A stretch of 64,000 nt of DNA from Caballeronia temeraria (lineage in GTDB: Bacteria > Pseudomonadota > Gammaproteobacteria > Burkholderiales > Burkholderiaceae): contig NZ_FCOI02000002.1 of the NCBI RefSeq assembly GCF_001544795.2, positions 372,001 to 436,000 on the forward strand, read 5' to 3'. Positions 30,666-61,187 of this stretch are shown piece by piece. Position numbers and translations under genes: made by a program. Each line of letters begins with the position of its first letter. Position 1 is the first letter of the stretch. The notes under the pieces are model-generated. The model was given only the letters and a program-made list of their open reading frames with translations. It was not told where the DNA came from and did not search any database.

Positions 30666-31655
30666 ATGGCTAGCTTCGTACAGCGTGGCGACAAGTGGAT
30701 GGCACGCATTGCGGTTAAGGGATACCCTAAGCAGAACAAAACGTTCGACACACACGCTGAGGCAAAGGCATGGGCGGCAGAGGTAGAAGCGGCCATGTAC
30801 AGCAGGACGTTTGTTGATGCTTCTGAGGCTAAGGACGTGCTGTTTGGGGAGCTTGTAGAGCGTTATCGCAGTCTGGAAATACCAAAGCGCAACTACGACA
30901 ATAAGAGCGAATACTTCAGGCTTGGCAAGATCGCCAGAAGCTTCATAGGGCAGTACAGCGTCTACAACCTAACGCCTATGGTCATCGCACAGTATCGCGA
31001 TGAACGCATAAAAGAAGTAGGACCGGCCACTGTTGCGCGTGAGCTAGCTAACATTCAAGGCATCATCAACCACGCTTGTAGAGAGTGGGGATTGAAGGTC
31101 GAAAATCCCTGTTTGAAGGTCAAAAAGCCAAAGCTTCCACCGGGCAGAAACAGGCTACTTACTGACGAGCAGTTGGCTATCTTGCTGCATGAGCTTCGTC
31201 CCGGTAGCCATGCAAAACGTAACCCGCTGTTGTATCCGCTTGTTCAAGTAGCGCTTGAGACTGCTATGCGACGTGGGGAGTTGTTGACGCTAACTTGGGA
31301 TCGAGTGGACTTGGAAAGACGTACAGCGCACCTGCCTATCACTAAGAATGGCAAGTCACGTACTGTCCCACTTAGTAGCAAAGCTGCTGAGATAATGGCT
31401 GCGTTGCCGCGTACTGATAAGCGTGTGTTTCCGCTCAGTAGCTTTGTTGTTGACAGTGCTTGGTGGAGACTGTGCAAGCGTGCAGGTATCGAAGACTTCA
31501 ACTTCCACGACCTGCGTCACATGGCTACTACACGTCTTGCTAAGAAGCTGCCTAACGTTATTGAGCTATCTGCTGTAACGGGGCATAGCAATCCTAAGAT
31601 GCTTGCACGGTACTACCATACGACGCCAGAGGAACTTGCGCTGAAGATTGGCTAA
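30666..31655 (+). CDS. int: Tyrosine-family phage integrase
   Basis: Site-specific recombinase for insertion and excision. 329 residues: N-terminal arm-binding part (WMARIAVKGYPKQNKTFDTH), core-binding part to about residue 150, then the catalytic domain. Catalytic residues seen are Arg in ALETAMRRGELLTLTWDRVD, H-x-x-R in NFHDLRHMATTRL, His in VTGHSNPKML and Tyr in ARYYHTTPEE. Reads away from attL. No excisionase was recognised beside it. Confidence 0.96.
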   Translation: MASFVQRGDKWMARIAVKGYPKQNKTFDTHAEAKAWAAEVEAAMYSRTFVDASEAKDVLFGELVERYRSLEIPKRNYDNKSEYFRLGKIARSFIGQYSVYNLTPMVIAQYRDERIKEVGPATVARELANIQGIINHACREWGLKVENPCLKVKKPKLPPGRNRLLTDEQLAILLHELRPGSHAKRNPLLYPLVQVALETAMRRGELLTLTWDRVDLERRTAHLPITKNGKSRTVPLSSKAAEIMAALPRTDKRVFPLSSFVVDSAWWRLCKRAGIEDFNFHDLRHMATTRLAKKLPNVIELSAVTGHSNPKMLARYYHTTPEELALKIG

Positions 31656-31658
31656 ATA
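31652..31658 (+). promoter_or_regulatory. Phage CTAAATA box before the 31684 gene
   Basis: CTAAATA overlaps the last bases of the integrase gene, 25 bp before the next ATG. TTGCG lies 12 bases upstream of TAAATA, the same arrangement as at 41969. Confidence 0.6.
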
Positions 31659-31683
31659 CCGTGTCATTGACACGGAGAAATTC

Positions 31684-31932
31684 ATGCAAACAACTTACAT
31701 CTGCACAATTCCATACATCATCACTGATCAAGAAGCGCCCACACTCGGGTTGGTCTATACACGTCCCGAGATCGAGGCGCTGCTACACAAACTCAACAAC
31801 TTTGAACTGACCTTGTTCCCAAGAACAGGCACATACCGCAGATTCCAAGTCGTTTTCAAGCTATATGACGAGGTCGATGTTGATGCGTTGAAGTCTCAAT
31901 TTCCACAGTTGGAATACACCGTAGCAGAATGA
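31684..31932 (+). CDS. Hypothetical phage protein, 82 aa
   Basis: Starts MQTTYICTIPYIITDQEAP. GGAG lies before ATG 31684; a longer frame from a TTG at 31648 overlaps the integrase and is less likely. Strand-rich small protein with FQVVFKLYDEVDVDALKS near the end. Not recognised. Ends 3 bp before a terminator. Confidence 0.8.
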   Translation: MQTTYICTIPYIITDQEAPTLGLVYTRPEIEALLHKLNNFELTLFPRTGTYRRFQVVFKLYDEVDVDALKSQFPQLEYTVAE

Positions 31933-31935
31933 AAA

Positions 31936-31958
31936 AAGGGGAGCTAGAAGCTCCCCTT
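31936..31958. terminator. Terminator between integrase-side and fibre-side genes
   Basis: AAGGGGAGCT-AGA-AGCTCCCCTT with an A run before and a TTGTTGTTT stretch after, so it may work in both directions. It separates the plus-strand left-end genes from the minus-strand block. Confidence 0.85.
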
Positions 31959-32023
31959 GTTGTTTGCAAATTGAAGTTAATAATGCGTCTGGACCTGGCA
32001 AGAAAAGACGCAGTATTTATCAG

Positions 32024-32212: not shown

Positions 32213-32241
32213 GTTGTGCGCTCCTTGTAGTTATAGCACAG

Positions 32242-32469: not shown

Positions 32470-32476
32470 GATTGCC

Positions 32477-32707
32477 TCAGTATTGTTCGCGTCCGTCCGT
32501 GTACTCGATCGTGCTACTCAGGTCGAGCGCTTGTACCTTTGCAATCTCCGTCTTGCCAAACCAGATGATGAACAGACCGGGTTCTGCGGGACTGCGTTGC
32601 ACTTTGACCTTCTTGCCAGCTTTGTGCGTGCGACCAGCGCTCAGGCCGATGTACTTGCTTTCGACTTCCTTCTTCAACTTTGCAACGCGTGGGATTTCGT
32701 AGCTCAC
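32477..32707 (-). CDS. Hypothetical basic phage protein, 76 aa
   Basis: GTG start at 32707 with AAGGAG seven bases upstream; an earlier GTG at 32731 is less well placed. The product is Lys-rich in its first half (VAKLKKEVESKYIGLSAGRT, KAGKKVKVQRSP) and ends in Glu/Asp/Tyr. No family recognised. Confidence 0.78.
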   Translation of the reverse strand: MSYEIPRVAKLKKEVESKYIGLSAGRTHKAGKKVKVQRSPAEPGLFIIWFGKTEIAKVQALDLSSTIEYTDGREQY

Positions 32708-32807
32708 TTCGTTCTCCTTGTTAATTACCACGCTCAGATGGTAATTTCACCAGGTGCAGAATCAACAAAAGAGTGACAGCCGCAAAAGAAAAAACGGAGC
32801 TTCGCCT

Positions 32808-34974: not shown

Positions 34975-34998
34975 GGAACGTTACCTTGTTATTCTTTT

Positions 34999-35005
34999 TA
35001 TTTAA
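34999..35005 (-). promoter_or_regulatory. Phage TTAAATA box before adaptor copy B
   Basis: TTAAATA on the minus strand, 24 bp upstream of the ATG at 34974, with AACAAGG between as the ribosome site. Confidence 0.5.
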
Positions 35006-35018
35006 CGTTGCTGCTAGC

Positions 35019-35356: not shown

Positions 35357-37084
35357 CTACCCCATAATGCAGATCAGTCTGCGTTTTCTAGTTGTTACTA
35401 CAGCGGGAGTCGTCGTTAAGGGTGGGGAGTACGTAATAACGATAACCCCTTGGCCGCCAGAAGGAGACGGATATGCATTACCGGCACCTGCACCACCACC
35501 ATACTTACCTCCACTAGCCGGAGCATTGAAGGAGCCACCACCGCCACCGCCCGCGCCAGCAGCACCGTTAGCCATATCAGTACCGTCGCCACCCTTTCCA
35601 GCGCCGTTATTGTCATCACCACCGCCGCCGCCACCACCGTTTGTGCCGGCAGTACCTACAATCGTCGTGCTGCCTGCTGGTGCAGCAGTGCCACCGCCTG
35701 TGCCAAGATAGTTATTGCCGCCGGTTCCGTTCGAAGTCTCTGTACCAGCAGCACCCGGCGAGCCACCGCTTGCACCGCCACCACCACCACCTGCGTCGAA
35801 ACTGAGGTTGTACGCGTCTCCGCCATTTGCGCCGGGACCGTTGGGACCGCCCGCACCACCACCACCACCGCATGAGAAGGAGCTTGAGAAGTCACCACCG
35901 CTGCCGCCTGCGCCACCGTCATAGTGAATGCTGCCGCCAGTGCCGCCCGTGCCGCCGAGTATGCGTGTCGTTGGAGCAGTGCCACCATATGCGAGGCCAC
36001 CACCACCTTTAGCGACAATAAGACCGCTGTTCCACGATGTGTCACCACCAGGTCCACCGAATGACGAGCCGCCCGCACCGATGGTATATGTGACTTTGGA
36101 ACCTGCTGTATAGCCTGTGAGACCAACATCTGCGCGGTACTCACCACCACCAGCAGCATAGCCAGTACCGAAGACAGAGCCACCACCACCAATAAGCTCG
36201 ACCTTGTCTAACGTCCCGGAGCAATCAGCAGGGACTGTCCAGCTTGTTCCTGACGTTAGAACTACGTACTGCTGAGGAATGTAGGTAATGCGAATTTGAC
36301 CTGCTGCACCATTACCACCTGTGCCGTTTGGTCCGCCGTTATCACCGCCACCACCACCACCACCGGGGAAGCCACCTGCGCCGCCCACGTTGCCGCTTGC
36401 ATTGTCGGAATAACTACCACCACCACCACCACCGCCATTTGCGTTAGCAGCACCAGCAGAGCCGTTCTTCGATGTGCTTGTGCCGCCTGTTCCGCCTGCA
36501 CCACCACTAACACCGTTGTCACCAGCACCGCCGTTTCCGCCAGCTACCCCTGAGCCTGTGTTGTCCTTGCCGTTTGAACCGGCGACGCCTACACCGTCAG
36601 GGCCAGCAGCACCACCACCACCACCGCCTGAGCCAACGTCATAGCCTGATAGACCACCACCACCACCGCCTTTACCACCTGCGTACTTGGTCGAACCGAT
36701 TGCCGTAGTTGTAGAACCACCAGCACCGCCACCTAGGCCTGGCTCTGCGCTGTACAAACCACCTGCGCCGCCCAACGCACCCACGGAGGAAACGGAAAGG
36801 GACGTGCCGTTGAAGTATGTGTTTCCACCGGTTGTGCCATCTGTACCGTTACCGCCGATACCAGCAGCACCAATCGCATACTTGATCGCTGCGCCGGGCG
36901 TCAATGTGAGGTTGGTGATAGCTGAGTAACCGCCACCACCACCTGCTGCACCGCCATAGTTACCATCAGCGCCGCCACCACCGCCTGCTCCCCAGACCTC
37001 GACTCGGTTACTCTTTGGGTTCCAATCGCTCGGTACTATCCATGACGAACCAGCAGTTAGAATAATTACTGTTGGAGTTGCCAT
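35357..37084 (-). CDS. Glycine-rich tail adhesin, 575 aa
   Basis: Two tandem copies of the same design: a strand unit (TVIILTAGSSWIVPSDW at residue 5 and YVVLTSGTSWTVPADCSG at about 272), then long Gly-rich runs with GGGG blocks. This suggests stacked polyglycine helices as in the gp38 adhesins of T4-like phages. The DNA is strongly codon-repetitive (GGTGGT/ACCACC), which makes it a site for recombination. Its ATG overlaps the stop of the large fibre gene, so it may sit on the fibre tip and decide host range. Confidence 0.9.
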   Translation of the reverse strand: MATPTVIILTAGSSWIVPSDWNPKSNRVEVWGAGGGGGADGNYGGAAGGGGGYSAITNLTLTPGAAIKYAIGAAGIGGNGTDGTTGGNTYFNGTSLSVSSVGALGGAGGLYSAEPGLGGGAGGSTTTAIGSTKYAGGKGGGGGGLSGYDVGSGGGGGGAAGPDGVGVAGSNGKDNTGSGVAGGNGGAGDNGVSGGAGGTGGTSTSKNGSAGAANANGGGGGGGSYSDNASGNVGGAGGFPGGGGGGGDNGGPNGTGGNGAAGQIRITYIPQQYVVLTSGTSWTVPADCSGTLDKVELIGGGGSVFGTGYAAGGGEYRADVGLTGYTAGSKVTYTIGAGGSSFGGPGGDTSWNSGLIVAKGGGGLAYGGTAPTTRILGGTGGTGGSIHYDGGAGGSGGDFSSSFSCGGGGGAGGPNGPGANGGDAYNLSFDAGGGGGGASGGSPGAAGTETSNGTGGNNYLGTGGGTAAPAGSTTIVGTAGTNGGGGGGGDDNNGAGKGGDGTDMANGAAGAGGGGGGSFNAPASGGKYGGGAGAGNAYPSPSGGQGVIVITYSPPLTTTPAVVTTRKRRLICIMG

Positions 37085-39882
37085 TAACGTGTACCTGCAA
37101 ACGTAATAGCGATGTTTGCAAGCGTCGCGTCAGGCGTCGCGGGGCCAGTGATCTGGATAGCATCACCGACCGCAAATGTCGTAGCAGTACTAAATGTGAA
37201 GGTCGAAGAAGTTGCACCTGCCGCAAACGCGAACGAACCGATAGACGTGCCGTTACGGGTGATCGTGAAGGTCGTTGTCGCCGTTGCTGCTGTGCCTGCA
37301 ATTGCCTTGGAGTTAGTCAGTGACGCCGGCCATGTAAATGCACGTGGTGCAGCAAAGCGGAAAACAACTTCGCTCGCGGTCGTTGTTCCTTCGATATAAA
37401 GCGCAATGTCGTAGGGCTGTGAAGTCCATGCTGCTGCTGTCGTACTAGTCGCTTGCAGAACCTGTCCCGCTGTTGGTGCTGTTGCTGTACTAGTGCCGCC
37501 GTTAGCTAATGGCAAGGTCCCGGTTACTGCTGAAGCAAGAGGTACTTGGCCCCATGCTGGCGCTACACCAACACCTTTCGATAACAGGACAGAACCGGTC
37601 GCAACGGCGCTAAGACCAGCGAGTGACGTGGCGGTTGATGCGTAAAGGAGCTGCCCCAACGTGTAGGAACTTAGGCCAGTACCGCCGCTCCCAACTGGCA
37701 AAGTGCCTGCTACGGCTGTCGTTAGACTCACCTTGCCGTATGAAGGAGCTACGCCTACACCACCCGAGATGATGACGTTACCCGCAGCAACATCGCTCAA
37801 GCCAGCTAATGTGCCGGAAGCAGATGCATAAAGAATCTGGCCGGTCGTATAGCTAGTAAGGCCAGTACCGCCTTGCGATACAGGAATGGTGCCTGTCGTG
37901 CCGCCGCTTAAACCGCTGATCGCGTTCTGCACGTAAGCAGTAGTCGCTACCTTTGTTGAGTTATCACCGGCTGTCGGAGTACTGGCTGTGATCGCGCCAT
38001 TTACTTGCAGGTTTGAAACACCGTCGTCTGTAGTGGTATTGACCAGCAGACGGTTGCCGTACACCAAGCGCATTGCAGATGCTTGGTTAGCTGTAGTTGC
38101 GGTGTCGTTTGTCGTGTTGTTGATGGCAAAATCGATGTACTCATTGCCCCATGCGCCACCGTTGAAGCCGCTGCTGATCGTTGAGACAAGGCGTGAGCCA
38201 TAATCGCTGACCGTACCGCCAAACGTACCCCACAGCCCGATCGCTGCATTAGTGCTATTTGCACCGTTTGCGCCTTTCACAGTCAACTGTGGCGAGGTCG
38301 CTGATGGAACTGCTGTGAGAACTAAGTTCGCGGCGTTGGTCGTGCCTGTGAATGTCGGAGCAGCGGTTAATGCGCCACCAACACCTGTAACGTCACCAGA
38401 TGTGAGCGTTACTGCGCCAGTGCGACCGTTGAATGATGAAACGCCTGCAACACCACCAGAGCCGCTTCCGCTGCTTGGTGTAGTCCAGACCATGTTGGTG
38501 CCGTCTGAACCGAGCACCTGTCCTGCTGTGCCGACTGACGTAATGCCAGTACCACCGCTTGAGACTGGAATCGCGTTTGAAGAAGTAATGCGCCAAGCGT
38601 TGAGCGTGCCGCCAACGTTCACGTTCTTGTTGACGCCCAAGCCGCCAAGAATTACTGCGCCACCTGTGGAGTTAGACGTTGAGTCTTGAGAGGAGTTGAC
38701 CCACAAGCCTGTGCCAGTGGTTGCTTGGCATGAAACAGAGCCGGAGAACTGGCCGTAACCTGTAGTAACGCCCGTATTGATGTAAGCTGCACCGCCTACG
38801 CCAAGACCACCGCCTACCGTCAACGCACCTGTTGTCGTTGAAGTAGCTGCCGTAATGTCAGTAATGCTAATCTTTCCAACGCCGCTAATGTCAGAAGCGG
38901 TGAGTGTCACTGCACCTGAACGAGTGTTGAATGTCGTTACGCCGGATGACTGGACGTTAGCGCTCAATACACCGTTGCTGATCGACAAGCCGCTACCGAC
39001 CATTACACCACCGAGCGTTGAAGCAGATGCTGTTGGCAACGTATATGCAGCAGGGATAGTTGGCTTATTCAGAATCTGCGCTGCGCCGCTGACTGCGTTC
39101 CAATCGCTATTAACCTGCGCCGCTGCTGTAGCGCTCAATACGCCGCTGGTAATAGACAAGCCACTACCTACCTTCACGCCACCCAGTGTTGATGCTGATG
39201 CAGTTGGAAGCGTGTATGCCGCAGGAATCGTTGGCTTGTTCGTCAGGTCGGTATATGAGCCGGAGAACAGAGTTGGCTTGTTGAGAACCTGTGCAACACC
39301 TGAAGCAGCATTCCAATCAGCATTGACTTGTGCTGCGGGAATAGCTGGTGCGCCTGTCAAGTCGGCATACTTACCGCTTGTCGCCACTGGCGCGAGACTT
39401 ACGAACGTTTGGCTAGCTGCGGTAGCGCTTTGTGCCGCTGCTGCTGCGCTGTTCGCTGCATTTGTCTCGGACGTTGCTGCCGCCGTCTGGCTTTGTGATG
39501 CTGCCGCTGCGCTGTTAGCCGCTGCTGTCTGGGAGCTTGATGCCGCTGCCGCACTGCCAGCCGCTTGTGTAGCGCTATTACCAGCAGCCAGGGAGCTTGC
39601 CGACGCGTTGCTTGCCTGAGTTGCGGACGTACCTGCTGATGCGCTGGCTGCTGATTCGCTAGCTGCTGCGTTTGTCTCGCTAGTTGCCGCCGCTGCTGCT
39701 GATGCGGACGCTGCCGCTGCTTGCGCTGCCGCTGCATCTACTTTGCCGTCTACTGCTGCCGCTGCTGCGATAACGTCTTGAATCGTGCTGTCGATTGGCA
39801 GTGGAAGGAAAGGGCCGAAGTTGGCGACTAGCGTGTTGCCGTCACCCTTCAATGTGAAGATAAGGCGTGGGGTCGTTGTCAT
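37084..39882 (-). CDS. Large repetitive tail fibre, 932 aa
   Basis: Starts MTTTPRLIFTLKGDGNTLVA, similar to the start of the 450-residue fibre. Residues 35-150 are Ala/Ser-rich with Q-T/S heptad-like repeats (helical shaft). Then come repeats such as NKPTIPAAYTLPTASASTLG occurring twice, VGSGLSI...GVLSA units and G-G-T-G-L-x-S-Y-T units near 700-850. No S74 domain. True start is ATG 39882, since the open frame above it belongs to the adaptor gene. Internal DNA repeats may allow length variation. Confidence 0.93.
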   Translation of the reverse strand: MTTTPRLIFTLKGDGNTLVANFGPFLPLPIDSTIQDVIAAAAAVDGKVDAAAAQAAAASASAAAAATSETNAAASESAASASAGTSATQASNASASSLAAGNSATQAAGSAAAASSSQTAAANSAAAASQSQTAAATSETNAANSAAAAAQSATAASQTFVSLAPVATSGKYADLTGAPAIPAAQVNADWNAASGVAQVLNKPTLFSGSYTDLTNKPTIPAAYTLPTASASTLGGVKVGSGLSITSGVLSATAAAQVNSDWNAVSGAAQILNKPTIPAAYTLPTASASTLGGVMVGSGLSISNGVLSANVQSSGVTTFNTRSGAVTLTASDISGVGKISITDITAATSTTTGALTVGGGLGVGGAAYINTGVTTGYGQFSGSVSCQATTGTGLWVNSSQDSTSNSTGGAVILGGLGVNKNVNVGGTLNAWRITSSNAIPVSSGGTGITSVGTAGQVLGSDGTNMVWTTPSSGSGSGGVAGVSSFNGRTGAVTLTSGDVTGVGGALTAAPTFTGTTNAANLVLTAVPSATSPQLTVKGANGANSTNAAIGLWGTFGGTVSDYGSRLVSTISSGFNGGAWGNEYIDFAINNTTNDTATTANQASAMRLVYGNRLLVNTTTDDGVSNLQVNGAITASTPTAGDNSTKVATTAYVQNAISGLSGGTTGTIPVSQGGTGLTSYTTGQILYASASGTLAGLSDVAAGNVIISGGVGVAPSYGKVSLTTAVAGTLPVGSGGTGLSSYTLGQLLYASTATSLAGLSAVATGSVLLSKGVGVAPAWGQVPLASAVTGTLPLANGGTSTATAPTAGQVLQATSTTAAAWTSQPYDIALYIEGTTTASEVVFRFAAPRAFTWPASLTNSKAIAGTAATATTTFTITRNGTSIGSFAFAAGATSSTFTFSTATTFAVGDAIQITGPATPDATLANIAITFAGTR

Positions 39883-39884
39883 TG

Positions 39885-40262
39885 TTATGCGCCGTATTTG
39901 CTGAGTGGGTTTGCACGTAGACGCATCCAGAACGGTTGATCTGTGATCGTTACGCCGTTTGGCCCTTGTGCTGAAATCCAGAACTGCGCTTTGCCAACAG
40001 GCCATTTCGCTGTATCACCAGCGGACGCAGTAATCTGATAAAGCCCGTTCGTATCCGGTACGGTCGGGTCTGAGAGGTTTGTTACCGTGAAAGAACCGAT
40101 TTGGTTCTCTGCGTCGGAGTCAAACAACGCTGCTTGAATGTTCCACTGGCTCCAGTCAGGTTGGTTGCCATTGGGACCATAAGTCCCGCCAGCAACGTCG
40201 CCATCAAGCATCAGTGTTCCTGCGTAGTTGAAAGTGTTTCCAACGAAAAAATCGACTGCCAT
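39885..40262 (-). CDS. Fibre adaptor/attachment protein, 125 aa (copy A)
   Basis: Starts MAVDFFVGNTFNYAGTLMLD, paralogous to copy B at 34603-34974 with the shared FNYAGTL and WPVGKAQ segments. Its stop lies 2 bp before the large fibre ATG. AAGGCG precedes ATG 40262; a longer frame to 40313 lacks support. Pairing of adaptor and fibre twice in 7 kb points to duplication of a two-gene module. Confidence 0.88.
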   Translation of the reverse strand: MAVDFFVGNTFNYAGTLMLDGDVAGGTYGPNGNQPDWSQWNIQAALFDSDAENQIGSFTVTNLSDPTVPDTNGLYQITASAGDTAKWPVGKAQFWISAQGPNGVTITDQPFWMRLRANPLSKYGA

Positions 40263-40278: not shown

Positions 40279-40767
40279 TTATTTCTTTGGCGCAAACTCG
40301 CCGTAGCAGGCACGTCTTACTTTCGCCACTACTGCTGCCGCTGCTTCAACTGATTCATACGTACCCAAGTAGGTGCGCTTGTTCTCAAAGTTGATGTATG
40401 TTTGGTATTTACCGCTGCTGACCTTTGACACGCCTGCGTAGCCAGATGTATTCAGCTTGCTGAGATTTGCATTGCGGGCGTTTTGTGCAGGTGTTGCTTC
40501 GCGGAGGTTTTCCCAGCGATTATCGAATGGGACACGGTTGATGTGATCGACTAGCTGTTTTGGAAATGCGCCAGTCATGTACAGGAAAGCGAGACGATGC
40601 TCATAATAGTGTTTCCCATTGATTGTGATACAGCGGTAGCCTTTGTCTGCTTTTGATCCTGCGCGTTGATTAATAACGTGGGCGCGGCCGGTTAGCCATG
40701 TGAAGTGACCTGTAATTGGGTCATAGTGGAGGAGACTCTTAAGTCTCTCTTGTGTAAGTGTAGTCAT
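40279..40767 (-). CDS. HNH homing-type endonuclease with AP2 domain
   Basis: 162 residues. Residues 1-40 are a NUMOD4-like start (LLHYDPITGHFTWLTGRAH). The HNH core is HRLAFLYMTGAFPKQLVDHI, then NRVPFDNRWENLREATPAQN and NARN. Residues 110-160 form an AP2-like DNA-binding domain (SGYAGVSKVSSGKYQTYINF, LGTYESVEAAA). Free-standing mobile gene, probably inserted next to the fibre operon; it has its own box and a terminator before it. Confidence 0.95.
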   Translation of the reverse strand: MTTLTQERLKSLLHYDPITGHFTWLTGRAHVINQRAGSKADKGYRCITINGKHYYEHRLAFLYMTGAFPKQLVDHINRVPFDNRWENLREATPAQNARNANLSKLNTSGYAGVSKVSSGKYQTYINFENKRTYLGTYESVEAAAAVVAKVRRACYGEFAPKK

Positions 40768-40811: not shown

Positions 40812-40819
40812 TATTTATT
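40812..40819 (-). promoter_or_regulatory. Phage AATAAATA box before the HNH gene
   Basis: AATAAATAGAAG on the minus strand, 45 bp before ATG 40767, preceded by TCATCTGCG. The sequence before 61181 (TCATCTGCAATAAATAACAAG) is nearly the same. Confidence 0.6.
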
Positions 40820-41920: not shown

Positions 41921-41927
41921 TATTTAG
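41921..41927 (-). promoter_or_regulatory. Phage CTAAATA box before the GNAT-like gene
   Basis: CTAAATACGG on the minus strand, 25 bp before ATG 41896. Faces away from the plus-strand box at 41969; the two divergent boxes are about 40 bp apart, with GTTGCAAC between them. Confidence 0.65.
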
Positions 41928-41968: not shown

Positions 41969-41975
41969 CTAAATA
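41969..41975 (+). promoter_or_regulatory. Phage CTAAATA box before the 42005 gene
   Basis: CTAAATACTTG 30 bp before ATG 42005, with AAAGGAGA between. TTGCA lies 12 bases upstream of TAAATA. Confidence 0.65.
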
Positions 41976-42004: not shown

Positions 42005-42298
42005 ATGCAAGAACGACACTTATTCGTATTCCAGATGCGCGAAGCAGAACAGATGACGCTCAAAGAGCTAGCTGAAGATGGACTGGCAGTATTCGAGCTA
42101 AACAAGCAGATTAACGAGTGGATTACTGACAACGACCTACGAGACCTTGTCGAGTACCAACCACCACGCCAGATAGTCACTAAGAAGATGATTGCGTTTG
42201 AAGCTCCATCATGGGAGTTCCGTGACGAGTACCATGCGCTACAGTTCAAAATGATCTTCGGTACCCGCTTCGAGTACCAGATTTACGATGCGGAGTGA
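42005..42298 (+). CDS. Small phage protein with FKL signature, 97 aa
   Basis: Starts MQERHLFVFQMREAEQMTLK. Helical N-terminal half with NKQINEWITDNDLRD, then strands, and near the end DEYHALQFKMIFGTRFEYQI, a variant of the D-A-x-x-F-K-L motif shared with other small genes here. AGGAG lies before ATG 42005. One of two plus-strand genes in a minus-strand neighbourhood. Confidence 0.85.
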   Translation: MQERHLFVFQMREAEQMTLKELAEDGLAVFELNKQINEWITDNDLRDLVEYQPPRQIVTKKMIAFEAPSWEFRDEYHALQFKMIFGTRFEYQIYDAE

Positions 42299-42302: not shown

Positions 42303-42575
42303 ATGAATTCGAACTGGATCGTAAGCAACAGTACATTTGGTCTACTCGTTGAAAACGTGTCAGACGCTAGAGTGTCTGAGGTCACAGAATGGTTTGACGC
42401 CGCCTACGGAAGCGATGACGTTGCGAACGTATATTTTCAGAAGCAGGACCATACTACAGAACGAGTGGTTCTGCGTGGCTGGACGGTGAGTGAATTGCAT
42501 AACTGCTGCACCGTTTTGATTGTCGAATGCAAAAGCGATAACGTTGCAGCAATGTTCAAACTTAGGTTTCTGTGA
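42303..42575 (+). CDS. Small phage protein with FKL signature, 90 aa
   Basis: Starts MNSNWIVSNSTFGLLVENVS; a helix VSEVTEWFDAAYG follows; ends SDNVAAMFKLRFL at the stop codon. The layout (strand, E-x-x-x-W helix, strands, terminal FKLR-aromatic) matches the minus-strand proteins at 43059-43280 and 43342-43713. Follows the previous gene by 4 bp. Confidence 0.85.
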   Translation: MNSNWIVSNSTFGLLVENVSDARVSEVTEWFDAAYGSDDVANVYFQKQDHTTERVVLRGWTVSELHNCCTVLIVECKSDNVAAMFKLRFL

Positions 42576-42579
42576 TGGA

Positions 42580-42668
42580 TATAAATAGATTGACCAATGG
42601 AACCCGTTCATTGGCCATGAAGTTGTATATTCTCTCTAAAGCGAAGGCCCGGAAATTCCGGGCCTTTT
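42580..42668 (+). ncRNA. Candidate small phage RNA
   Basis: TATAAATA at 42580-42587 is followed, with no credible gene, by a hairpin (CCAATG/CATTGG, 42594-42614) and then the strong terminator at 42644-42668. A transcript of roughly 70-80 bases would result. The only ATG frame is about 31 codons and runs through the terminator. Alternatively the box is a stray site. RNA evidence is needed to decide. Confidence 0.4.
42644..42668. terminator. Bidirectional terminator between convergent small genes
   Basis: AAGGCCCGG-AAATT-CCGGGCCTT followed by TTCT; A/T-rich on both sides. Lies 70 bp after the plus gene pair and next to the stop of the minus gene at 42673. Confidence 0.9.
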
Positions 42669-42672
42669 CTGT

Positions 42673-43062
42673 TTATCGCGCTACATTCCATCCGTTCAGC
42701 TTTGCTCGCTGATCGTCTTTCATTGTCTTCAGTATCCTGATGTACTCTCTGTATGTCAGCTTCACTACATCGTTGTCTACACCGTTCTTCTGCTTTTCTT
42801 CCATCTCAGCAGGTCCACCGGGTCTGTACCTACACTTGTCACCATGCGTGGTGTTGAAGTACCAACCTGACTGCGTTGTTCTTCCGCAATGTTCGCAAGT
42901 GCTGGTGGTAGTTACTTTTGGTCGTTGTCGCTTGAAGATGCCATGCTTGCTTTTCTTCAGCGTGCATCTTGGACCGTGATAAGCATTGAAATAGAACTTC
43001 GTGTATTCGTTGCCACAGTTAGCGCAAGTGTAGCGGGGCCGCTTTGGTAGTTGTTTAGTCAC
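42673..43062 (-). CDS. Double zinc-ribbon phage protein, 129 aa
   Basis: Two similar metal-binding repeats: YTCANCGNEYTKFYFNAYHG with PRC after it, and STCEHCGRTTQSGWYFNTTHG with DKC after it (C-x2-C...H-x2-C twice). Between and after them the chain is basic (KRQRPKVTTTS). Probably a nucleic-acid-binding protein. GTG 43062 overlaps the previous stop (GTGA) and has GGTGGAG upstream, so it is chosen over GTG 43077. Confidence 0.85.
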   Translation of the reverse strand: MTKQLPKRPRYTCANCGNEYTKFYFNAYHGPRCTLKKSKHGIFKRQRPKVTTTSTCEHCGRTTQSGWYFNTTHGDKCRYRPGGPAEMEEKQKNGVDNDVVKLTYREYIRILKTMKDDQRAKLNGWNVAR

Positions 43063-43280
43063 AGGTAATCGCTCCACCGCAATTTAAAGTGGATAGCGTC
43101 TGTCTCGTTGAAGAAGTAGAAAGGTGCTTGGATGGAGTACACCAGAAATGGACCAATACAGCCGCCGACCAACGGCACGCCGTAATCAAAATCTGGAGTA
43201 TTTTCCTCGCACCAATGAATTGCGTCGTTTACCTCCTGGACGTTCTGCGTTGTTAGGATAATTTCAAATGTTGTTTGCAT
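43059..43280 (-). CDS. Small phage protein with FKL signature, 73 aa
   Basis: Starts MQTTFEIILTTQNVQEVNDA, continues IHWCEENTPDFDYGVP and ends NETDAIHFKLRWSDYL. The clearest example of the family in this window. GGAGAG lies before ATG 43280, so this start is preferred to 43298. Coupled to the zinc-ribbon gene. Confidence 0.88.
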   Translation of the reverse strand: MQTTFEIILTTQNVQEVNDAIHWCEENTPDFDYGVPLVGGCIGPFLVYSIQAPFYFFNETDAIHFKLRWSDYL

Positions 43281-43301: not shown

Positions 43302-43308
43302 TATTTAC
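43302..43308 (-). promoter_or_regulatory. Phage GTAAATA box before the 43280 gene
   Basis: GTAAATACGAG on the minus strand, 22 bp before ATG 43280, preceded by TGCACTTTG. Confidence 0.6.
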
Positions 43309-43341: not shown

Positions 43342-43713
43342 TCACATATACCTGAGCTTAAACATTACTGCTACTTGCTCTTGGCAAACTAGGTGTAATT
43401 CGGTTGCGTAGGAATAGTATTTGTTCTTATAGCCAGCCCAAGTGTTTGTCTCAAAGTCCCATTTGCGTTGGACAGCTTCTACAGGTTCTGTCTCGAAGAA
43501 ATGCAAACCCCAATGCGTTTTTTCCGCGACGCGCTTCTGCCATTCCGGTGTTCTGGAGTCGGAGCTTTTACTGTTACCGTCACCAAACGATTCTGTAAGC
43601 CAGTCATAAAGCTCTTTATGCAGCTTTAACTTTGGGTTCACTGATGTCTTGAAAATGTACAAGCCGTGGCTGTCAAGCGATTCACTCCATACATGGTTAT
43701 TGTGATCGTTCAT
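43342..43713 (-). CDS. Small phage protein with FKL signature, 123 aa
   Basis: Starts MNDHNNHVWSESLDSHGLYI; helix LKLHKELYDWLTESFGDG; a variable middle; ends CQEQVAVMFKLRYM. The ATG overlaps the stop of the 56-aa gene (ATGA). Role unknown. Confidence 0.86.
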   Translation of the reverse strand: MNDHNNHVWSESLDSHGLYIFKTSVNPKLKLHKELYDWLTESFGDGNSKSSDSRTPEWQKRVAEKTHWGLHFFETEPVEAVQRKWDFETNTWAGYKNKYYSYATELHLVCQEQVAVMFKLRYM

Positions 43714-44784: not shown

Positions 44785-44792
44785 TATTTATG
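44785..44792 (-). promoter_or_regulatory. Phage CATAAATA box before the 44732 gene
   Basis: On the minus strand TGCATCTTAAAAACATAAATAGAA, split here as TGCATCTTAAAA plus ACATAAATAGAA, lies 53 bp before the ATG. The box at 47829 has almost the same 24 bases. Confidence 0.7.
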
Positions 44793-46448: not shown

Positions 46449-46455
46449 TATTTAG
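46449..46455 (-). promoter_or_regulatory. Phage CTAAATA box for the leftward operon
   Basis: CTAAATACGAAGG on the minus strand, 61 bp before ATG 46388. A second minus-strand box, GATAAATA, lies farther upstream at about 46603-46610. Confidence 0.55.
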
Positions 46456-46510: not shown

Positions 46511-46907
46511 GTCAAAATGATGGGGACCACCACAGTCCCCATCCAGCACTTTTGCCAGCTACGACAAGAAATGACCAGCAGGCATTGCACCGGCTGTCCG
46601 TTTATTTATCTGGATTCTACGGGACACCTGCGAATACGTCAAAATACTCGTCGCACGTCAAAAGTGCGTTTCTTATTCAAGATACCATCTAATATATAGA
46701 TATAGAAGGAATAAGAAACGCACTTTTCGCAGGCTCAAAGTGCAGATTTCTTTCCGGCTTTCTGCCGTTATCTGGGTGACTTCGTCCTGCTTCGCAGGTA
46801 CCTTCGGTGGCTTCGCTTCCTCAGGTAGCAGCTTTCAGCGGCTGGTGCCTAGTTCTTGAAAGTGAATTGAGCCGTTATACCGCAGATTCCCGACATTCGT
46901 CAAAATG
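46511..46907 (+). repeat. Repeated GTCAAAATG elements
   Basis: GTCAAAATG at 46511 and 46899, GTCAAAAT at 46638 and GTCAAAA at 46657, three of them preceded by CG; an inverted copy CATTTTGAC lies at 47700-47708. Same orientation for four copies, as in iterons or multiple protein sites. Confidence 0.65.
46660..46727. repeat. 19-bp perfect inverted repeat with AT-rich 30-base centre
   Basis: AAAAGTGCGTTTCTTATTC (46660-46678) pairs perfectly with GAATAAGAAACGCACTTTT (46709-46727). The centre is 30 bases, nearly all A/T, and holds a smaller ATCTA/TAGAT palindrome. The arm overlaps one GTCAAAA element. Could be an origin structure or a large operator; as a terminator it lacks a GC stem. Confidence 0.85.
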
Positions 46908-46927: not shown

Positions 46928-47129
46928 CATAAATATTGGCAAGCGTCTCATTGAATTACCGTATTGCCGATGCGGCGGGATTGACGCACCCGGTCATAGA
47001 ACAGCCCGTTCTGCGCGGGAAATCGGCTAACGCAGAAAACACATATCGACCAACGCTACTGCGAATAGCGCGGTACTGTGGTCTCGATTATGAGCAGACG
47101 GAGCGACTTTCGAGTCGCTCTTTCTGTTT
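46928..47129 (+). ncRNA. Candidate second small phage RNA
   Basis: CATAAATA at 46928, itself overlapped by the palindrome ATGCACC-AACAC-GGTGCAT (46912-46930), is followed by about 165 bases without a convincing gene and then the hairpin terminator at 47101-47129. The order box, no gene, terminator, next box repeats the case at 42580. A frame from TTG 46936 crosses the terminator and reads poorly, so an RNA product or an attenuated leader is more likely. Confidence 0.4.
47101..47129 (+). terminator. Terminator upstream of the rightward operon
   Basis: GAGCGAC-TTTCGA-GTCGCTC followed by TTTCTGTTT. It ends before the box at 47134, so it cannot serve the downstream genes; it must end RNA coming from the divergent region. 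Confidence 0.85.
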
Positions 47130-47133: not shown

Positions 47134-47141
47134 CATAAATA
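47134..47141 (+). promoter_or_regulatory. Phage CATAAATA box before the 47182 gene
   Basis: CATAAATACCGTGACA, 41 bp before ATG 47182. The following ACCGTG is also seen after the box at 31652. Confidence 0.65.
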
Positions 47142-47828: not shown

Positions 47829-47836
47829 TATAAATA
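47829..47836 (+). promoter_or_regulatory. Phage TATAAATA box before the 47874 gene
   Basis: Exact TATAAATA, 37 bp before ATG 47874, with CGGGAG between. The bases before it (TTGCATCTTAAAAG) match those at the 44785 box on the other strand. Confidence 0.75.
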
Positions 47837-47873: not shown

Positions 47874-48164
47874 ATGTTCGGTTTTTTTGAGAAGAAAGCG
47901 ACGAAGCCTTGGGTCTTCACCAAATTTGAGATAGATGAACGTAACTTGAACCGTATCGAAGTGCCTGAAGGCATTGAAGTAAAGCAGACGCTTGATTCTC
48001 TGTTCAGTATTAGAACAAACTGGCTCAGCGATCCAGTTACGTATGAACTGTACTTTCCGCCAGAGCGCGAAGACGATGCATTGATGTTCAAGCTGCAATT
48101 CGGAGAGTATATCGAGGACACAACCCAGTGGCAGGCAATCAGTCCAAGTCAAGGAACGTGGTAA
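47874..48164 (+). CDS. Small phage protein with FKL signature, 96 aa
   Basis: Starts MFGFFEKKATKPWVFTKFEI and has EREDDALMFKLQFGEYIEDT near the end, after which about 15 further residues follow. Strand-rich. Stop overlaps the next start (TAATG). Function unknown. Confidence 0.86.
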   Translation: MFGFFEKKATKPWVFTKFEIDERNLNRIEVPEGIEVKQTLDSLFSIRTNWLSDPVTYELYFPPEREDDALMFKLQFGEYIEDTTQWQAISPSQGTW

Positions 48165-48319
48165 TGACAGAAGAAGAATTGAGACGCTGGGCCGAAAAGA
48201 TGGATCGCACAGGCACGACTCACAGCGAAGAATCAAAAGAGAAGATGCGACAGGCCAAGCTAGGCAAGACCAGAGGGCCATACAAGAAAAAGAACAAAGA
48301 CAAGGGAGAGACAAAATGA
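48164..48319 (+). CDS. Small NUMOD3-like DNA-binding peptide, 51 aa
   Basis: MTEEELRRWAEKMDRTGTTH leads into SEESKEKMRQAKLGKTRGPY and a KKKNKDK tail. The middle resembles the NUMOD3 DNA-binding motif of GIY-YIG and HNH homing endonucleases, but no nuclease domain is attached. It may be a remnant or a free-standing DNA-binding piece. ATGA-type overlap with the next gene. Confidence 0.75.
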   Translation: MTEEELRRWAEKMDRTGTTHSEESKEKMRQAKLGKTRGPYKKKNKDKGETK

Positions 48320-50206: not shown

Positions 50207-50264
50207 TTAGGTGATTTGGCTAGCGCAAGGCTATATCCTCTGGCTCCTATAGCAAGGAGTCCAT

Positions 50265-50687
50265 ATGAAAGTAACCGCACAGCCCGTACCGATGGTCGAA
50301 CGCATGACGTTCCTCCCCAAGGTCTTCGGCCTCAAGCTAATGATGAAAGCGGAAGCAATGCTCTACCACACGGCAGAAGAGCTTGCAGCAGACAGCTACA
50401 AGGGCGGGTACTGGGAGTACATGAAGCTCAGTACTAGGGGAGGCTACGCAGCACCAGTCAACCCCGCACGTATGCGGCTACAAGTAGCAGGCAACGGGTA
50501 CGAAGGGGAAGTAAGCGCAGACGCAGCCGGCGTCATCATCACGCTGTTTGTACTCAGCAACTTGATGTTTGAGACGAGCGGGAAGGACGAAGCACTTACG
50601 CAGATGCTTATACGGAACTGGGAGCAGCTACGCGAGTATGCAGCAACGCACACGGAGGCACGAGAAATATACAGAGCCATCGACTAA
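50265..50687 (+). CDS. ArdB/KlcA family antirestriction protein
   Basis: 140 residues. The start, VTAQPVPMVERMTFLPKVFG, and the core SYKGGYWEYMKLSTRGGYAA with PV after it match the KlcA/ArdB family, which blocks type I restriction by an unclear route. AGGAG lies before the ATG. On a phage such a protein helps entry or rescue in a host with restriction systems. Bounded by terminators on both sides as part of a small accessory block. Confidence 0.93.
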   Translation: MKVTAQPVPMVERMTFLPKVFGLKLMMKAEAMLYHTAEELAADSYKGGYWEYMKLSTRGGYAAPVNPARMRLQVAGNGYEGEVSADAAGVIITLFVLSNLMFETSGKDEALTQMLIRNWEQLREYAATHTEAREIYRAID

Positions 50688-51136: not shown

Positions 51137-51143
51137 CTAAATA
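51137..51143 (+). promoter_or_regulatory. Phage CTAAATA box before the terminase genes
   Basis: CTAAATAGAAATAC, directly after the terminator and 55 bp before ATG 51198; AGAAAT after the box also occurs at 47829. Confidence 0.7.
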
Positions 51144-53106: not shown

Positions 53107-53126
53107 TCAATAGGAATATAAATAAT

Positions 53127-54221
53127 ATGTCACCAGAAAATAATTCACCTACCAGTGAGCCAATTGGGAGCGCAACCCAAGAAAGCCAAGGCGGTAATGT
53201 TGGCGGTGCCCTTAGCGAGAATGACTTTATCCGCTATTTCAACGAGAAGCACGGTGCAGCTAAAACAGAAGCACCAGTAGAAAAGGCAACAGAGACGGCA
53301 GAAACAAATGCTGACCTAGATGCTGATATCGTTGACATTAGTGAAAGTGATGACGAAGCAACGGAAGCAGACACAGCAGAGCTTGACAGCGATTCTAACG
53401 ATACCAACGAAAGCGAACCTGATGAAACCGACGTTGACCCAGAACTCACTATTCAGGTAGATGGAAAAGAAGAAAAAGTTAAGCAATCTGAGTTGATCAA
53501 ACGAGCGCAAAAGGCGACCTCGGCTGATAAGAAGTTTCAAGCTGCTTCTGAAATGCGCAAAGAAGCGGAAGAGATCAAGTCCACTTACACAAGGGACCGA
53601 GATACATTGAAAAGCTTGGCAGCACAATATCAGAATTTTATTGAGCAAGCGTACAAGATAGAACCTCCAACGATGGAACTGCTTGACACTAATCCCGCTG
53701 AATACATTAGGCAGGAAAAGATGTTCCAAGCAAAACAGCAAGAGATCTATCAAGCTAAACTCCTTCAGGAACAGATTCGTTCACAAGAAGAAACTGAACG
53801 TAAGATGGCCTCTGAGAAACATCTCAAAGAACAACAACGTATTGTTTTCGAGAAGTTTCCACAGTGGAAGAATCCTGAGAAGGCACAACACGACGCAAAA
53901 CGTATTGAATCATTCTTGGACGCAACAGGATTCAGTAAGGACGAACAAGCAGGGCTGAATGATGCCCGTATGCTTGAAGTCGTGCATAAGGCTGCTTTGT
54001 ACGATGCAGCTATGAAAGCTAAAGACCAGAAGAAGGCAAAGCCTACAACTGGCAAAACTTTGACATCGGGCGTATCACAAGCTGCTGATCCTCTCTTCCA
54101 GAAGAGACAGGCGCAGACACAGAACGCACGTCAAACGAAGGCGCTTCAGGACAACTTTAAACGCGAACAATCAGAAGACGCGTTTATCGAAATGTTCAAG
54201 AACAAGATGCGCACTCGTTAA
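53127..54221 (+). CDS. Scaffold-like protein, 364 aa
   Basis: Lies between terminase and capsid genes. Residues 40-110 are strongly acidic and low in complexity (DADIVDISESDDEATEADTA), residues 150-270 a long charged helix (QQEIYQAKLLQEQIRSQEET), and the C-terminus is basic (ALQDNFKREQSED...NKMRTR). This layout fits a capsid scaffold. TATAAATA at 53117 ends 3 bp before the ATG, too close to act as its promoter with AGGA as ribosome site. Confidence 0.85.
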   Translation: MSPENNSPTSEPIGSATQESQGGNVGGALSENDFIRYFNEKHGAAKTEAPVEKATETAETNADLDADIVDISESDDEATEADTAELDSDSNDTNESEPDETDVDPELTIQVDGKEEKVKQSELIKRAQKATSADKKFQAASEMRKEAEEIKSTYTRDRDTLKSLAAQYQNFIEQAYKIEPPTMELLDTNPAEYIRQEKMFQAKQQEIYQAKLLQEQIRSQEETERKMASEKHLKEQQRIVFEKFPQWKNPEKAQHDAKRIESFLDATGFSKDEQAGLNDARMLEVVHKAALYDAAMKAKDQKKAKPTTGKTLTSGVSQAADPLFQKRQAQTQNARQTKALQDNFKREQSEDAFIEMFKNKMRTR

Positions 54222-55279: not shown

Positions 55280-55286
55280 CTAAATA
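55280..55286 (+). promoter_or_regulatory. Phage CTAAATA box before the portal gene
   Basis: CTAAATAACGG, 33 bp before ATG 55319, with GAAGGGAAG between. Confidence 0.7.
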
Positions 55287-57859: not shown

Positions 57860-57868
57860 GGAATAAGA

Positions 57869-58460: not shown

Positions 58461-58462
58461 GC

Positions 58463-58642: not shown

Positions 58643-58656
58643 TAAGAAGGTGAGTA

Positions 58657-59268: not shown

Positions 59269-59273
59269 GAGAT

Positions 59274-60773
59274 ATGGCAAAAGAACAACAATTAGACCCG
59301 CAAAAGCTGGTTGGTTTTGCTCCTGACCTAGACCCGGCTACACCCGGCATCTTCCGCACTTGCAACAACATCATTCCAACAGCACAAGGCTTCAAGTCCG
59401 CTGCTAGTCCCGTTAGCTCCAACATGGCTGCGCTTCCCGCTCCTGTAGTTGGTAGCGCACTGATCGCACGCTTGAACGGCACCGATCGCCAGTTTGCAGG
59501 CACAGCGTCAAAGCTCTACGAGAACCAGAACGGTACATGGGTGGACGTTAGCCGCTCTAGCAGCTACGCGCTCGGTTCCACAGCACAGTGGCGCTTTACT
59601 GCGTTCGGCAACATGTCTTTGGCTGTGAACGGAACAAACCTAATGCAAGCGGCGCTTGACGGCGCCTTTGCTGACATTGCGAACTCTCCAACAGGTCAGA
59701 TCGTATTCGTTGCCAACTACCAAGTGTTCGTCTGCAATACAACCGCAGCACCGGGTGGACAATTCGGCCCGCACTACTGGCACTGCTCAGGCGTAGGCGA
59801 CCATACGCAATGGGACTACACGAACCAGCAAACGCTTTGCGCCTACGCTCCTTTGGGCGACACGGCCGGCGGTATTACAGCAGGTACGGCATTAGGTCCA
59901 AACGCAATCCTGTTCAAGACTAACTCCATGTACGTTGGAACGCTGCAAGGCTATCCAACAGGTTGGGGCTTTGAAGCAATCAGCAAGCAAGTAGGCGCAT
60001 TGTGTCAAGAAGCGGTAGTCAATACCGGTTCCGCATTGTTCTTTATTGGCTCTGACGACTTCTACGCATATCAGAACAATAGCCTGCCACAACCAATTGG
60101 CGGCAATGTGCGTCGTTGGTTCTTCAACACAATCAGTCCAGCGTACAAGAACAAAATCAGCAGCTATTACGATCAAGATCAGCAAGTTATCTATTGGGCG
60201 TTTGTATCTAACAACTCCGCAAATGGTGCTTTCGACTCCTGCATCACATATAACTGGAAGACGGGCACTTGGGGCGTAATGAACCTGAACATGCAAGGGT
60301 TCATGCAGATTCTGAACGGTCAGATCACGTTCAACAGTATCGGTAATCAGTGGGTTACATACGACGCGTTGCCAGCTATTAGCTATGACTCGTCATTCTG
60401 GATCAACTTCCGCATTACACCGGGTTACTTCGACAATACGAACACCCTGTATGCATTAGCTGGTGCCTCAAAGGGCGCGACCATCTCTACGAATACATTT
60501 GGCGATACGCGTTACTACTCCACGCTGAAGCAGTTCTTCCTAATGAGCAAGCAGCAACCCGCATCTGGCACGGCTGTATGGAAGGGCGTAACGGCAGCAG
60601 GTACAAGCGATCCGTCATCAATTGCGACCGCTAAGACTGGCGCATTTGTACCCGCAGACTCCCGTATCGACGTGGATCAAAACGCACGTTGGCACGGCTT
60701 AGACCTAACACTTACTGGCGACTTCGAGATCATGGAGTGGTTCGTAACGCTGTCAACAACAGGGAAGAACTAA
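59274..60773 (+). CDS. Tail hub / DNA stabilisation protein, 499 aa
   Basis: Resembles the gp10-type hub proteins of P22-like phages, which close the tail after packaging: LVGFAPDLDPATPGIFRTCN, a strand-rich propeller-like body (WRFTAFGNMSLAVNGTNLMQ; NYQVFVCNTTAAPGGQFGPH) and a C-terminal strand domain (YYSTLKQFFLMSKQQPASGT). Stop overlaps the next ATG (TAATG). No enzymatic motif. Confidence 0.85.
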   Translation: MAKEQQLDPQKLVGFAPDLDPATPGIFRTCNNIIPTAQGFKSAASPVSSNMAALPAPVVGSALIARLNGTDRQFAGTASKLYENQNGTWVDVSRSSSYALGSTAQWRFTAFGNMSLAVNGTNLMQAALDGAFADIANSPTGQIVFVANYQVFVCNTTAAPGGQFGPHYWHCSGVGDHTQWDYTNQQTLCAYAPLGDTAGGITAGTALGPNAILFKTNSMYVGTLQGYPTGWGFEAISKQVGALCQEAVVNTGSALFFIGSDDFYAYQNNSLPQPIGGNVRRWFFNTISPAYKNKISSYYDQDQQVIYWAFVSNNSANGAFDSCITYNWKTGTWGVMNLNMQGFMQILNGQITFNSIGNQWVTYDALPAISYDSSFWINFRITPGYFDNTNTLYALAGASKGATISTNTFGDTRYYSTLKQFFLMSKQQPASGTAVWKGVTAAGTSDPSSIATAKTGAFVPADSRIDVDQNARWHGLDLTLTGDFEIMEWFVTLSTTGKN

Positions 60774-61168
60774 TGGCACGCATCGGAAAGATAGTTCTCC
60801 CTACGAAGACAACCAACGTAGACGGCGAGACAGTAACTTACGCAGATACGGGACAGCTTGAAAACATCTTGAACAAGATCGTTGCGCAGCTTGATTCATT
60901 GTCAGGTGGTCAGATGGCAGCAAAGTACTCCGCTGCTTCTGCTCCACCAACTGGCACTGGTAAGACAATCACGACCAATCCAACGGGTCAGGTGTTTGGT
61001 ATTACGTGGGACGTGGGCGATTTCATTCCAGCAAAGACGCCTACTGTGACCACTGCAAACGGGCACACGTATGTCTTGCAGGGTTGGGTTTGTACTGTGG
61101 GTGGCAACGCAGGTACTTCGACTCCACCAACGTTTCAAGCGTGCTACAGCGTAGTGGGGCCGTTCTAA
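60773..61168 (+). CDS. Hypothetical virion protein, 131 aa
   Basis: Start at the coupled ATG 60773 (MARIGKIVLPTKTTNVDGET). Residues 20-50 are a helix (TGQLENILNKIVAQLDSLSG), the rest strands with repeated TTNPTGQVFGITWDVGDF-like text. Position between hub and ejection proteins suggests a tail or neck component. Confidence 0.83.
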   Translation: MARIGKIVLPTKTTNVDGETVTYADTGQLENILNKIVAQLDSLSGGQMAAKYSAASAPPTGTGKTITTNPTGQVFGITWDVGDFIPAKTPTVTTANGHTYVLQGWVCTVGGNAGTSTPPTFQACYSVVGPF

Positions 61169-61180
61169 TCCTCATCTGCA

Positions 61181-61187
61181 ATAAATA
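61181..61187 (+). promoter_or_regulatory. Phage ATAAATA box before the internal-protein gene
   Basis: CATCTGCAATAAATAACAAG, 22 bp before ATG 61209. Near-identical to the sequence before the HNH gene on the other strand. Confidence 0.65.

Follow-up and report, generated by a model that had tools for sequence, protein, structure and literature searches.

In the account of T4 late transcription given in PMC2988020, the late promoter is an 8-bp box that lies roughly one helical turn upstream of the transcription start and has no -35 element, and a passage of the structural paper PMC7892883 describes it in the same way. The former account presents T4-type late transcription as unique to T4-related phages, with gp55 as the reader of the box and the replication clamp as its activator. 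For the T4-like Aeromonas phage Aeh1, the passage on its late promoters in PMC1524935 gives the form CTAAATA, beginning at -12. Here we describe a six-base element, TAAATA, which recurs between the genes of a prophage in a 64,000-nucleotide stretch of Caballeronia temeraria DNA (contig NZ_FCOI02000002.1, positions 372,001 to 436,000; hereafter the window) and which, judged from its sequence context, very likely marks promoters. The best reading appears to be a -10-only promoter core like that of the T4 late promoters, especially the CTAAATA form of Aeh1. A literature search on a TAAATA phage motif returned one paper, unrelated judging from its title and the start of its abstract, and a literature search on N4 RNAPII with TTTA returned none.

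The first 30.5 kb or so of the window are host DNA, and the prophage begins at 30548. Measured from the starts of its two attachment repeats (Table 1), this prophage, here called A, is about 40.0 kb long (30548 to about 70559), and its lineage is temperate, podovirus-like and about 40 kb in genome size. A terminase scan of IMG/VR yielded the window's own record and two relatives, and a genome search added further relatives of falling identity. Together with A, the box-bearing prophages, a family found in soil-type relatives of Burkholderia, are B (IMGVR 3300028024_000018), C (Caballeronia jiangsuensis MP-1 contig19, genome G006, from the window's genus), D (in genome G321, from the same family) and K and M (2823919643_000001 and 2537561807_000004), which were found through the gene p32477 and have most structural genes in common. 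The large terminase subunits (terL) of D, K and M are 56 to 57% identical to that of A, and their terminase small subunit (terS), scaffold, portal and open reading frame (ORF) 61209 proteins are 32 to 65% identical. As more distant outgroups we used E, F and H (terminase identity 37 to 42%; the F stretch is short) and V (L101, IMGVR 2814123180_000002; terminase identity 40%, 44% GC); the hosts of H and D belong to one genus. A portal search of 50,697 phage records matched 332 of them, none at 60% identity or above, which suggests that this collection contains no isolated phage of the group. A portal scan of genome contigs returned no relative, and a search for ORF 41354 in 399 genomes of the order found only the window's own copy.

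With the box defined as an exact match to TAAATA, the window contains 20 copies where 7.6 are expected, and none of 100 dinucleotide shuffles reached 20. Prophage A holds 19, with 18 outside genes, in agreement with the original prediction of about 18 copies of which all but one lie between genes or at gene edges; the genic copy, which it had placed at about 40416, is at 40406 on the minus strand. The host part holds a single copy in 30.4 kb, at 29923, before what we read as a coaD-like gene. The shuffle control proposed with that prediction also came out in its favor, since the 17 wholly intergenic boxes of prophage A (the box at 31653, which overlaps the integrase stop, is excluded) far exceed the counts in 200 shuffles, which averaged 1.92 and reached 6 at most; B has 15 (mean, 3.8; maximum, 9) and C has 13 (mean, 4.1; maximum, 10). 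The six prophages together contain 96 copies in 36.2 kb of intergenic DNA and 5 in 191.3 kb of genes (Fisher p about 7e-70), and of the 15 hexamers that can be made from four A and two T, TAAATA is the most frequent between genes and the least frequent within them. Chance occurrence in AT-rich intergenic DNA is ruled out by the shuffles and by the other arrangements of the same letters.

The distant relatives are not enriched in the box. F has 2 copies in 31.5 kb and H has none in 30.0 kb; E has 10 in 28.0 kb, compared with 7.0 in single-base shuffles, and 2 of these are intergenic. In V there are 26 copies in 21.2 kb versus 19.6 in shuffles (maximum, 30), with 10 intergenic and 4 of those before a same-strand ORF start; genes in E and V were called by ORF length alone. 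By its distribution among these sequences, the box is a trait of the whole prophage family and not of prophage A alone.

Placement and direction of the boxes point to a role at gene starts. In the six prophages, 71 of the 96 intergenic boxes lie at most 100 bp before a same-strand start codon, and where only one direction is available, 55 boxes agree with the direction of the gene and 2 oppose it. With the exception of six boxes at the scaffold gene, the nearest box end to a called start is at 20 bp and none is at 4 to 19 bp, as would be expected if a leader and a ribosome site must follow. TAAATA is the top hexamer in oriented windows 15 to 75 bp before starts (61 forward and 11 reverse, with 4.7 expected; z 26), and the most frequent single-letter variant occurs 10 times in these windows against 61 for TAAATA; it is from these variant counts, and not from the column table, that the six letters are taken to be invariant. 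The column table was built from the 65 boxes at 15 to 100 bp, leaving aside 25 distant boxes and the six scaffold boxes. It has A or C directly before TAAATA in 56 of 65 cases and a purine at the start position of the T4 register in 49 of 65 (p 0.012), and no conserved -35 element is found in it or in a second table of 47 sites. Seven divergent pairs have only 30 to 43 bp between their boxes, which leaves little room for two separate -35/-10 promoters; the gap is 43 bp in the pair 41921/41970 and 30 to 31 bp in its counterparts in B, C and K.

The 13 boxes that the original prediction had listed as pointing into genes are all present, with coordinates within 2 bp, and end 21 to 60 bp before the start codon where 22 to 61 bp had been claimed. 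Its three exact copies of TATAAATA (given as 42580, 47829 and 53117) and its longer shared contexts, TGCATCTTAAAA at 44785 and 47831 and TCATCTGC at 40812 and 61182, were also confirmed. The proposal of a single short, oriented, promoter-like element used on both strands is thus supported, with no -35 partner. The description of the box as phage-wide holds in that boxes are found across the phage and goes too far in that they precede 54 of the 122 called genes that have 40 nt or more between them and the gene upstream; ardB, the 76-amino-acid (aa) orphan p32477 and the integrase gene are without one.

The box is retained at orthologous genes, even where the proteins of D, K and M have diverged from those of A to the 32 to 65% identity given above. 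Across A, B, C, D, K and M it lies 46 to 55 bp before terS, 24 to 35 bp before the portal gene and 21 to 24 bp before ORF 61209, and in M, O and Q a box lies 28 bp before an ATG of the portal gene. All eight other prophages that hold terS have its box (B, C, D, K, M, N, O and Q, with T counted with N). Incomplete records added afterwards (N, O, Q, R and T) carry boxes before whichever of terS, scaffold, portal and ORF 61209 each holds, except that the scaffold gene of R, which starts in the edge region of the record, shows none; since N, R and T seem to represent a single phage population, these amount to about three independent additions. The HNH gene is boxed in B, C and K too, and the gene in the replication slot is boxed in relatives as well (B15128, C32095 and K11117). 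In several cases orthologous leaders diverge widely outside the box (for example, A41970 and B10670).

A number of boxes are followed by short non-coding stretches. In one class (A42582, B11365, C29065, K7786 and N3077), the stretch ends in a terminator-like hairpin. Its members (42582-42670 in the window) have a CATG core, which is TCATG in four of five, and a CTCC run resembling an anti-Shine-Dalgarno sequence in several. The other class (A46603, at 46515-46608; B15261; K11272; M6208) has, downstream of the box, a hairpin whose loop, TGTGGTG, is constant and whose stem differs in sequence from phage to phage on both of its sides; it is possibly a small RNA or an origin structure. Nearby, at 46655-46730, a 19-bp inverted repeat (AAAAGTGCGTTTCTTATTC and its complement) was seen by eye around an AT-rich spacer and may be an origin or an operator. 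An Rfam search of window positions 30400 to 64000 gave no matches.

Several observations weigh against the promoter reading and the mechanism proposed below. Of the 96 intergenic boxes, 25 have no same-strand start within 100 bp, and in the window the boxes at 32014, 46603, 46930 and 42582 do not fit a gene-start role, nor does the one at 53119, just 2 bp from a start codon. The last case is general, with one box 2 to 3 bp before the scaffold start in each of the six prophages. This gap does not suit a promoter for the scaffold start codon, except if translation begins at another place or if the box acts for genes farther on. The scaffold box (53119-53130) may serve internal starts or the capsid gene that follows. 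In the column table, position -33 is weakly T-rich (28 of 65; 0.13 bits), the highest column from -45 to -20 and one outside the place of a -35 element, and the purine preference is not unique, A at position 14 being stronger (p 0.003). The gene calls come from our own codon-usage script and not from a standard annotator. A reader protein was not found in our scans of the six prophages, neither a recognizable gp55 nor a visible sigma factor or phage RNA polymerase, and BLAST leaves just four non-virion genes, namely integrase, terS, ardB and p32477, that all six carry and that were not seen in E, F and H. Homologues of p32477 (63 to 68% identity) stand alone in two host chromosomes, I and J, without box enrichment.

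Orientation, the minimum distance to start codons, presence at many transcription units and the compact divergent pairs nevertheless argue for a promoter core. We propose that TAAATA preceded by A or C would act as a -10-like element alone at many transcription units. RNA synthesis is predicted to begin about one helical turn downstream of the box, given the box-to-start-codon distances and the likeness to T4 late promoters. Transcription would likely run in two tiers: host sigma70 RNA polymerase would first serve a few genes with ordinary promoters (ardB and p32477), and a phage-made specificity factor would afterwards bring the core RNA polymerase of the host to the boxes, which stand at most other units, structural and accessory, and at some short non-coding RNAs. 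Taken as a whole, this explanation is on balance probable. A specificity factor of the phage's own, proposed by analogy with T4, is plausible.

The identity of such a factor was pursued with several profile searches. A six-member gp55 profile run against 3073 stop-to-stop frames of the six prophages found no homologue (best E value, 1.4), and in leave-one-out controls the six members were recovered at 4e-31 to 5e-54; a search with phrog_234 was also empty, as was its control. Sigma70_r2 matched none of five phage records and all five host genomes, with no listed match inside the A, C or D prophages. Among the 105 accessory proteins, Pfam gave no sigma, RNA polymerase or clamp family in the 25 of 44 families listed (the rest have one member each, at E 0.0013 or weaker), and a PHROG scan of the same proteins excludes less, because 25 of its 59 families were shown. 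NCBIfam returned one sigma hit in this set, TIGR02937 (sigma70-ECF), at E 6e-4 and 19.4 bits against a cut-off of 42.9; we rejected it, as it covers the helix-turn-helix part of an 83-aa protein of M which a transposase helix-turn-helix matches slightly better. The Pfam scan of virion proteins likewise listed no RNA polymerase family, and no dedicated RNA polymerase profile search was made. Three virion proteins are, like the four non-virion genes, common to the six and unseen in E, F and H, apart from a weak 24% match to one of them in H. ORF 41354 was rejected as the reader because it is present in E and H, both without box enrichment. The original prediction had held that the phage probably has its own sigma-like factor; with no gp55-like or other recognized sigma in the six phages, save the sub-threshold hit in M, that part is not supported as worded, and a factor of this kind stays an inference.

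The replication slot differs between phages and is filled by unrelated proteins. It holds a 358-aa orphan in A (45312-46388) and K, a 371- and 465-aa protein (31% identical) with polymerase-like motifs DIK-C and HDG by eye in B (L030:4515-5630) and M (L081:8553-9950), a helicase-like protein with a Walker motif by eye in C (L020:7991-9391) and a primase-polymerase (Prim-Pol) in D (L052:14437-17076). The A and B proteins had no match in phage records, and the B protein had none in the PDB.

The unboxed genes ardB and p32477 suggest a second promoter class. Their leaders contain a pattern ([T/G]TGATT or TTGAT/TTGGT forms, a 15- to 18-bp spacer and a TA-box) which is matched 13 times between genes and 6 times inside them in the six prophages; of the intergenic matches, 11 lie before p32477 (in all six phages) or ardB (in five of six). 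The pattern was fitted to these leaders and is therefore a description and not an independent test. Sigma70-like scores are slightly higher in unboxed than in boxed genes (one-sided p 0.013), and those of the p32477 leaders (8.7 to 9.3) are below the 95th percentile of shuffles (9.6).

Because no phage-encoded candidate beyond weak ones is common to the six prophages, the reader could instead be the host's, with the holoenzyme reading TAAATA directly through sigma70 or an alternative sigma, perhaps with a host activator; the hosts are rich in Sigma70_r2 matches (17 in G000, 24 in G006 and 15 in G321). The sigma70 consensus is TTGACA and TATAAT, and an ordinary sigma70 promoter is ruled out for the box, which has no -35 element and lacks the final T of the -10 hexamer. 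TAAATA is infrequent in the host DNA seen, with one copy in 30.4 kb and one in 20 kb, and it is all but absent from F and H, related phage regions whose hosts belong to the same family. We consider a host reader unlikely. The candidate p32477, as reader or RNA polymerase adaptor, was raised by its universality and by its conservation at about 80% identity against the lower figure for terL, its third codon positions being nearly as diverged as those of terL. It has no box in any of the six and the sigma70-like pattern in each, and by eye it is basic. The copies in I and J lowered it again, and because it stands alone in those chromosomes we rate it as moron-like and a weak candidate. As for a moron gene, its placement and orientation differ between phages; its leader scores do not exceed the 95th percentile of shuffles, and the protein has no family or fold match and none in phage records or plasmids, a PDB profile search returning only antibody chains at E above 1. 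That p32477 is the reader is accordingly a rather improbable proposition.

A box read by a phage single-subunit RNA polymerase of the T7, N4 or mitochondrial type would account for the want of any comparably enriched variant of the six letters, and B and M do encode the common protein with polymerase-like motifs. That protein was rejected as the box polymerase since it was not found in A, C, D or K, and no RNA polymerase family was listed for the 105 accessory proteins or the scanned virion proteins, so we judge this very unlikely. A box that acts at the RNA level, such as a site in 5' leaders where the transcript is processed or a regulator binds, would be in keeping with the scaffold boxes that abut the start codon in all six phages and the A-rich or hairpin leaders after some boxes. 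The divergent boxes, with little upstream room for separate promoters, the boxes before non-coding stretches, and a core and geometry that match T4 late promoters make an RNA role highly doubtful. A promoter core read by a phage-made factor stays our preferred reading.

The features of the window are listed in Table 1.

Table 1. TAAATA boxes and other features of prophage A in the window
Feature	Position	Strand	Context
Left attachment repeat GAGTGCATCAACTGCGACGT	30548..30567	+	Second copy from 70540, 6.5 kb past window end
TAAATA box	31653..31658	+	25 bp before ORF 31684-31932; overlaps integrase stop codon
TAAATA box	32014..32019	-	Leads to no called gene
76-aa orphan p32477	32477..32707	-	Conserved across the six box-bearing prophages at about 80% identity; possible regulator, a weak candidate
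Sigma70-like TTGATT-16-TACCAT	32738..32765	-	Before p32477, no box; score below 95th percentile of shuffles
TAAATA box	34999..35004	-	24 bp before ORF 34974-34603
TAAATA in HNH gene	40406..40411	-	Sole genic copy; probably chance
TAAATA box	40812..40817	-	44 bp before HNH gene, start taken as ATG 40767 (our caller chose a later start)
TAAATA box	41921..41926	-	24 bp before ORF 41896-41354; divergent partner of 41970
TAAATA box	41970..41975	+	29 bp before ORF 42005-42298; divergent partner of 41921
FKLRF family members	42005-42298, 42303-42575, 43059-43280, 43342-43713, 47874-48164; also L009:7545-7817		Homologues in B, C, D, K, M
TATAAATA box	42582..42587	+	Short non-coding stretch with terminator-like hairpin; counterparts in B, C, K, N
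TAAATA box	43302..43307	-	21 bp before ORF 43280-43059 (FKLRF family)
TAAATA box	44785..44790	-	52 bp before ORF 44732-44277
TAAATA box	46449..46454	-	60 bp before ORF 46388-45312, 358-aa orphan in replication slot
TAAATA box	46603..46608	-	Precedes conserved hairpin region, long non-coding stretch; counterparts in B, K, M
TAAATA box	46930..46935	+	Long non-coding stretch; next called gene 246 bp away
TAAATA box	47136..47141	+	40 bp before ORF 47182-47370
TATAAATA box	47831..47836	+	37 bp before ORF 47874-48164 (FKLRF family)
Sigma70-like GTGATT-17-TATCCT	50211..50239	+	Before ardB, no box
Antirestriction gene ardB	50265..50687	+	Pfam Antirestrict; universal in the six; presumably ArdB/KlcA
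TAAATA box	51138..51143	+	54 bp before terS
TATAAATA box	53119..53124	+	2 bp before scaffold gene start
TAAATA box	55281..55286	+	32 bp before portal gene
TAAATA box	61182..61187	+	21 bp before ORF 61209-62909

Other genes of the prophage were observed in passing. The FKLRF family consists of small proteins of about 70 to 125 aa with a C-terminal DA-x-x-FKL-R-F/W motif, several of them boxed; the pattern has 1 to 6 matches per box-bearing prophage, a few probably spurious, and none in E, F or H, and one such protein had no match in phage records. A 51-aa protein at 48164-48319, conserved in B and C, has a weak match (E 0.0055, below the curated cut-off) to NUMOD3, a DNA-binding motif of homing endonucleases which here stands alone. 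Two large repetitive minus-strand ORFs of 575 and 973 aa at 35357-40005, probably tail-fibre-like by eye, have few matches or none in C, and those in B are short.

A temperate lineage outside the T4 group might use one invariant six-base promoter for most of its genome, read by a phage-made specificity factor not recognizably related to sigma, a possibility that we put forward tentatively and would not yet call probable. If true, this would be a new way to redirect bacterial RNA polymerase, converging on the T4 late promoter. The same core and spacing without the recognizable known factors would mean either that a very diverged sigma is hidden in these genomes or that another protein is used, and the invariant box and small gene set make the search for the reader tractable. 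The box could also serve as a cheap genome mark for the transcription units of this uncharacterized prophage group, including short non-coding RNAs.

Among known promoter systems, those of the T7 and N4 single-subunit RNA polymerases also use a short element repeated before many units; they differ from the present case in that no such polymerase was seen common to the six prophages. Sigma70 promoters share with the box an AT-rich -10-like element, and the second pattern (TTGATT-16/17-TAYCMT and variants) resembles them; TAAATA itself differs in standing without a -35 element, in ending in A and not T, and in that its one-letter variants are not comparably enriched. T4 late promoters come closer, and the likeness to them drawn in the original prediction stands for the TAAATA core, the lack of a -35 element, the distance to start codons, the use of either polarity and the service of many units by one short element. 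A stretch of T4 treated in the same way has 17 of 59 TAAATA copies within 100 bp of a start, 13 of which end 23 to 46 bp before it. The likeness does not extend to the full consensus TATAAATA, which a minority of the boxes match here (5 of the 65 promoter-like and 16 of the 96 intergenic ones): of the 17 near-start boxes in the T4 stretch, 13 have T two bases before TAAATA and 14 have A directly before it, whereas in the prophage family TA precedes TAAATA in just 5 of 65 and the first of the eight box positions is T in 6 of 65. Unlike T4, moreover, these prophages are temperate, podovirus-like and about 40 kb in size, a gp55 homologue was not found in them, and their accessory genes are boxed as well. 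The Aeh1 late promoter differs in that A-preceded forms are also common here and a T4-type factor was not found; with C before TAAATA as one of the two main forms in the prophage family, and with GCTAAATA, its most frequent 8-mer (20 of 96 intergenic boxes), close to CTAAATA, the prophage box nonetheless resembles that of Aeh1.

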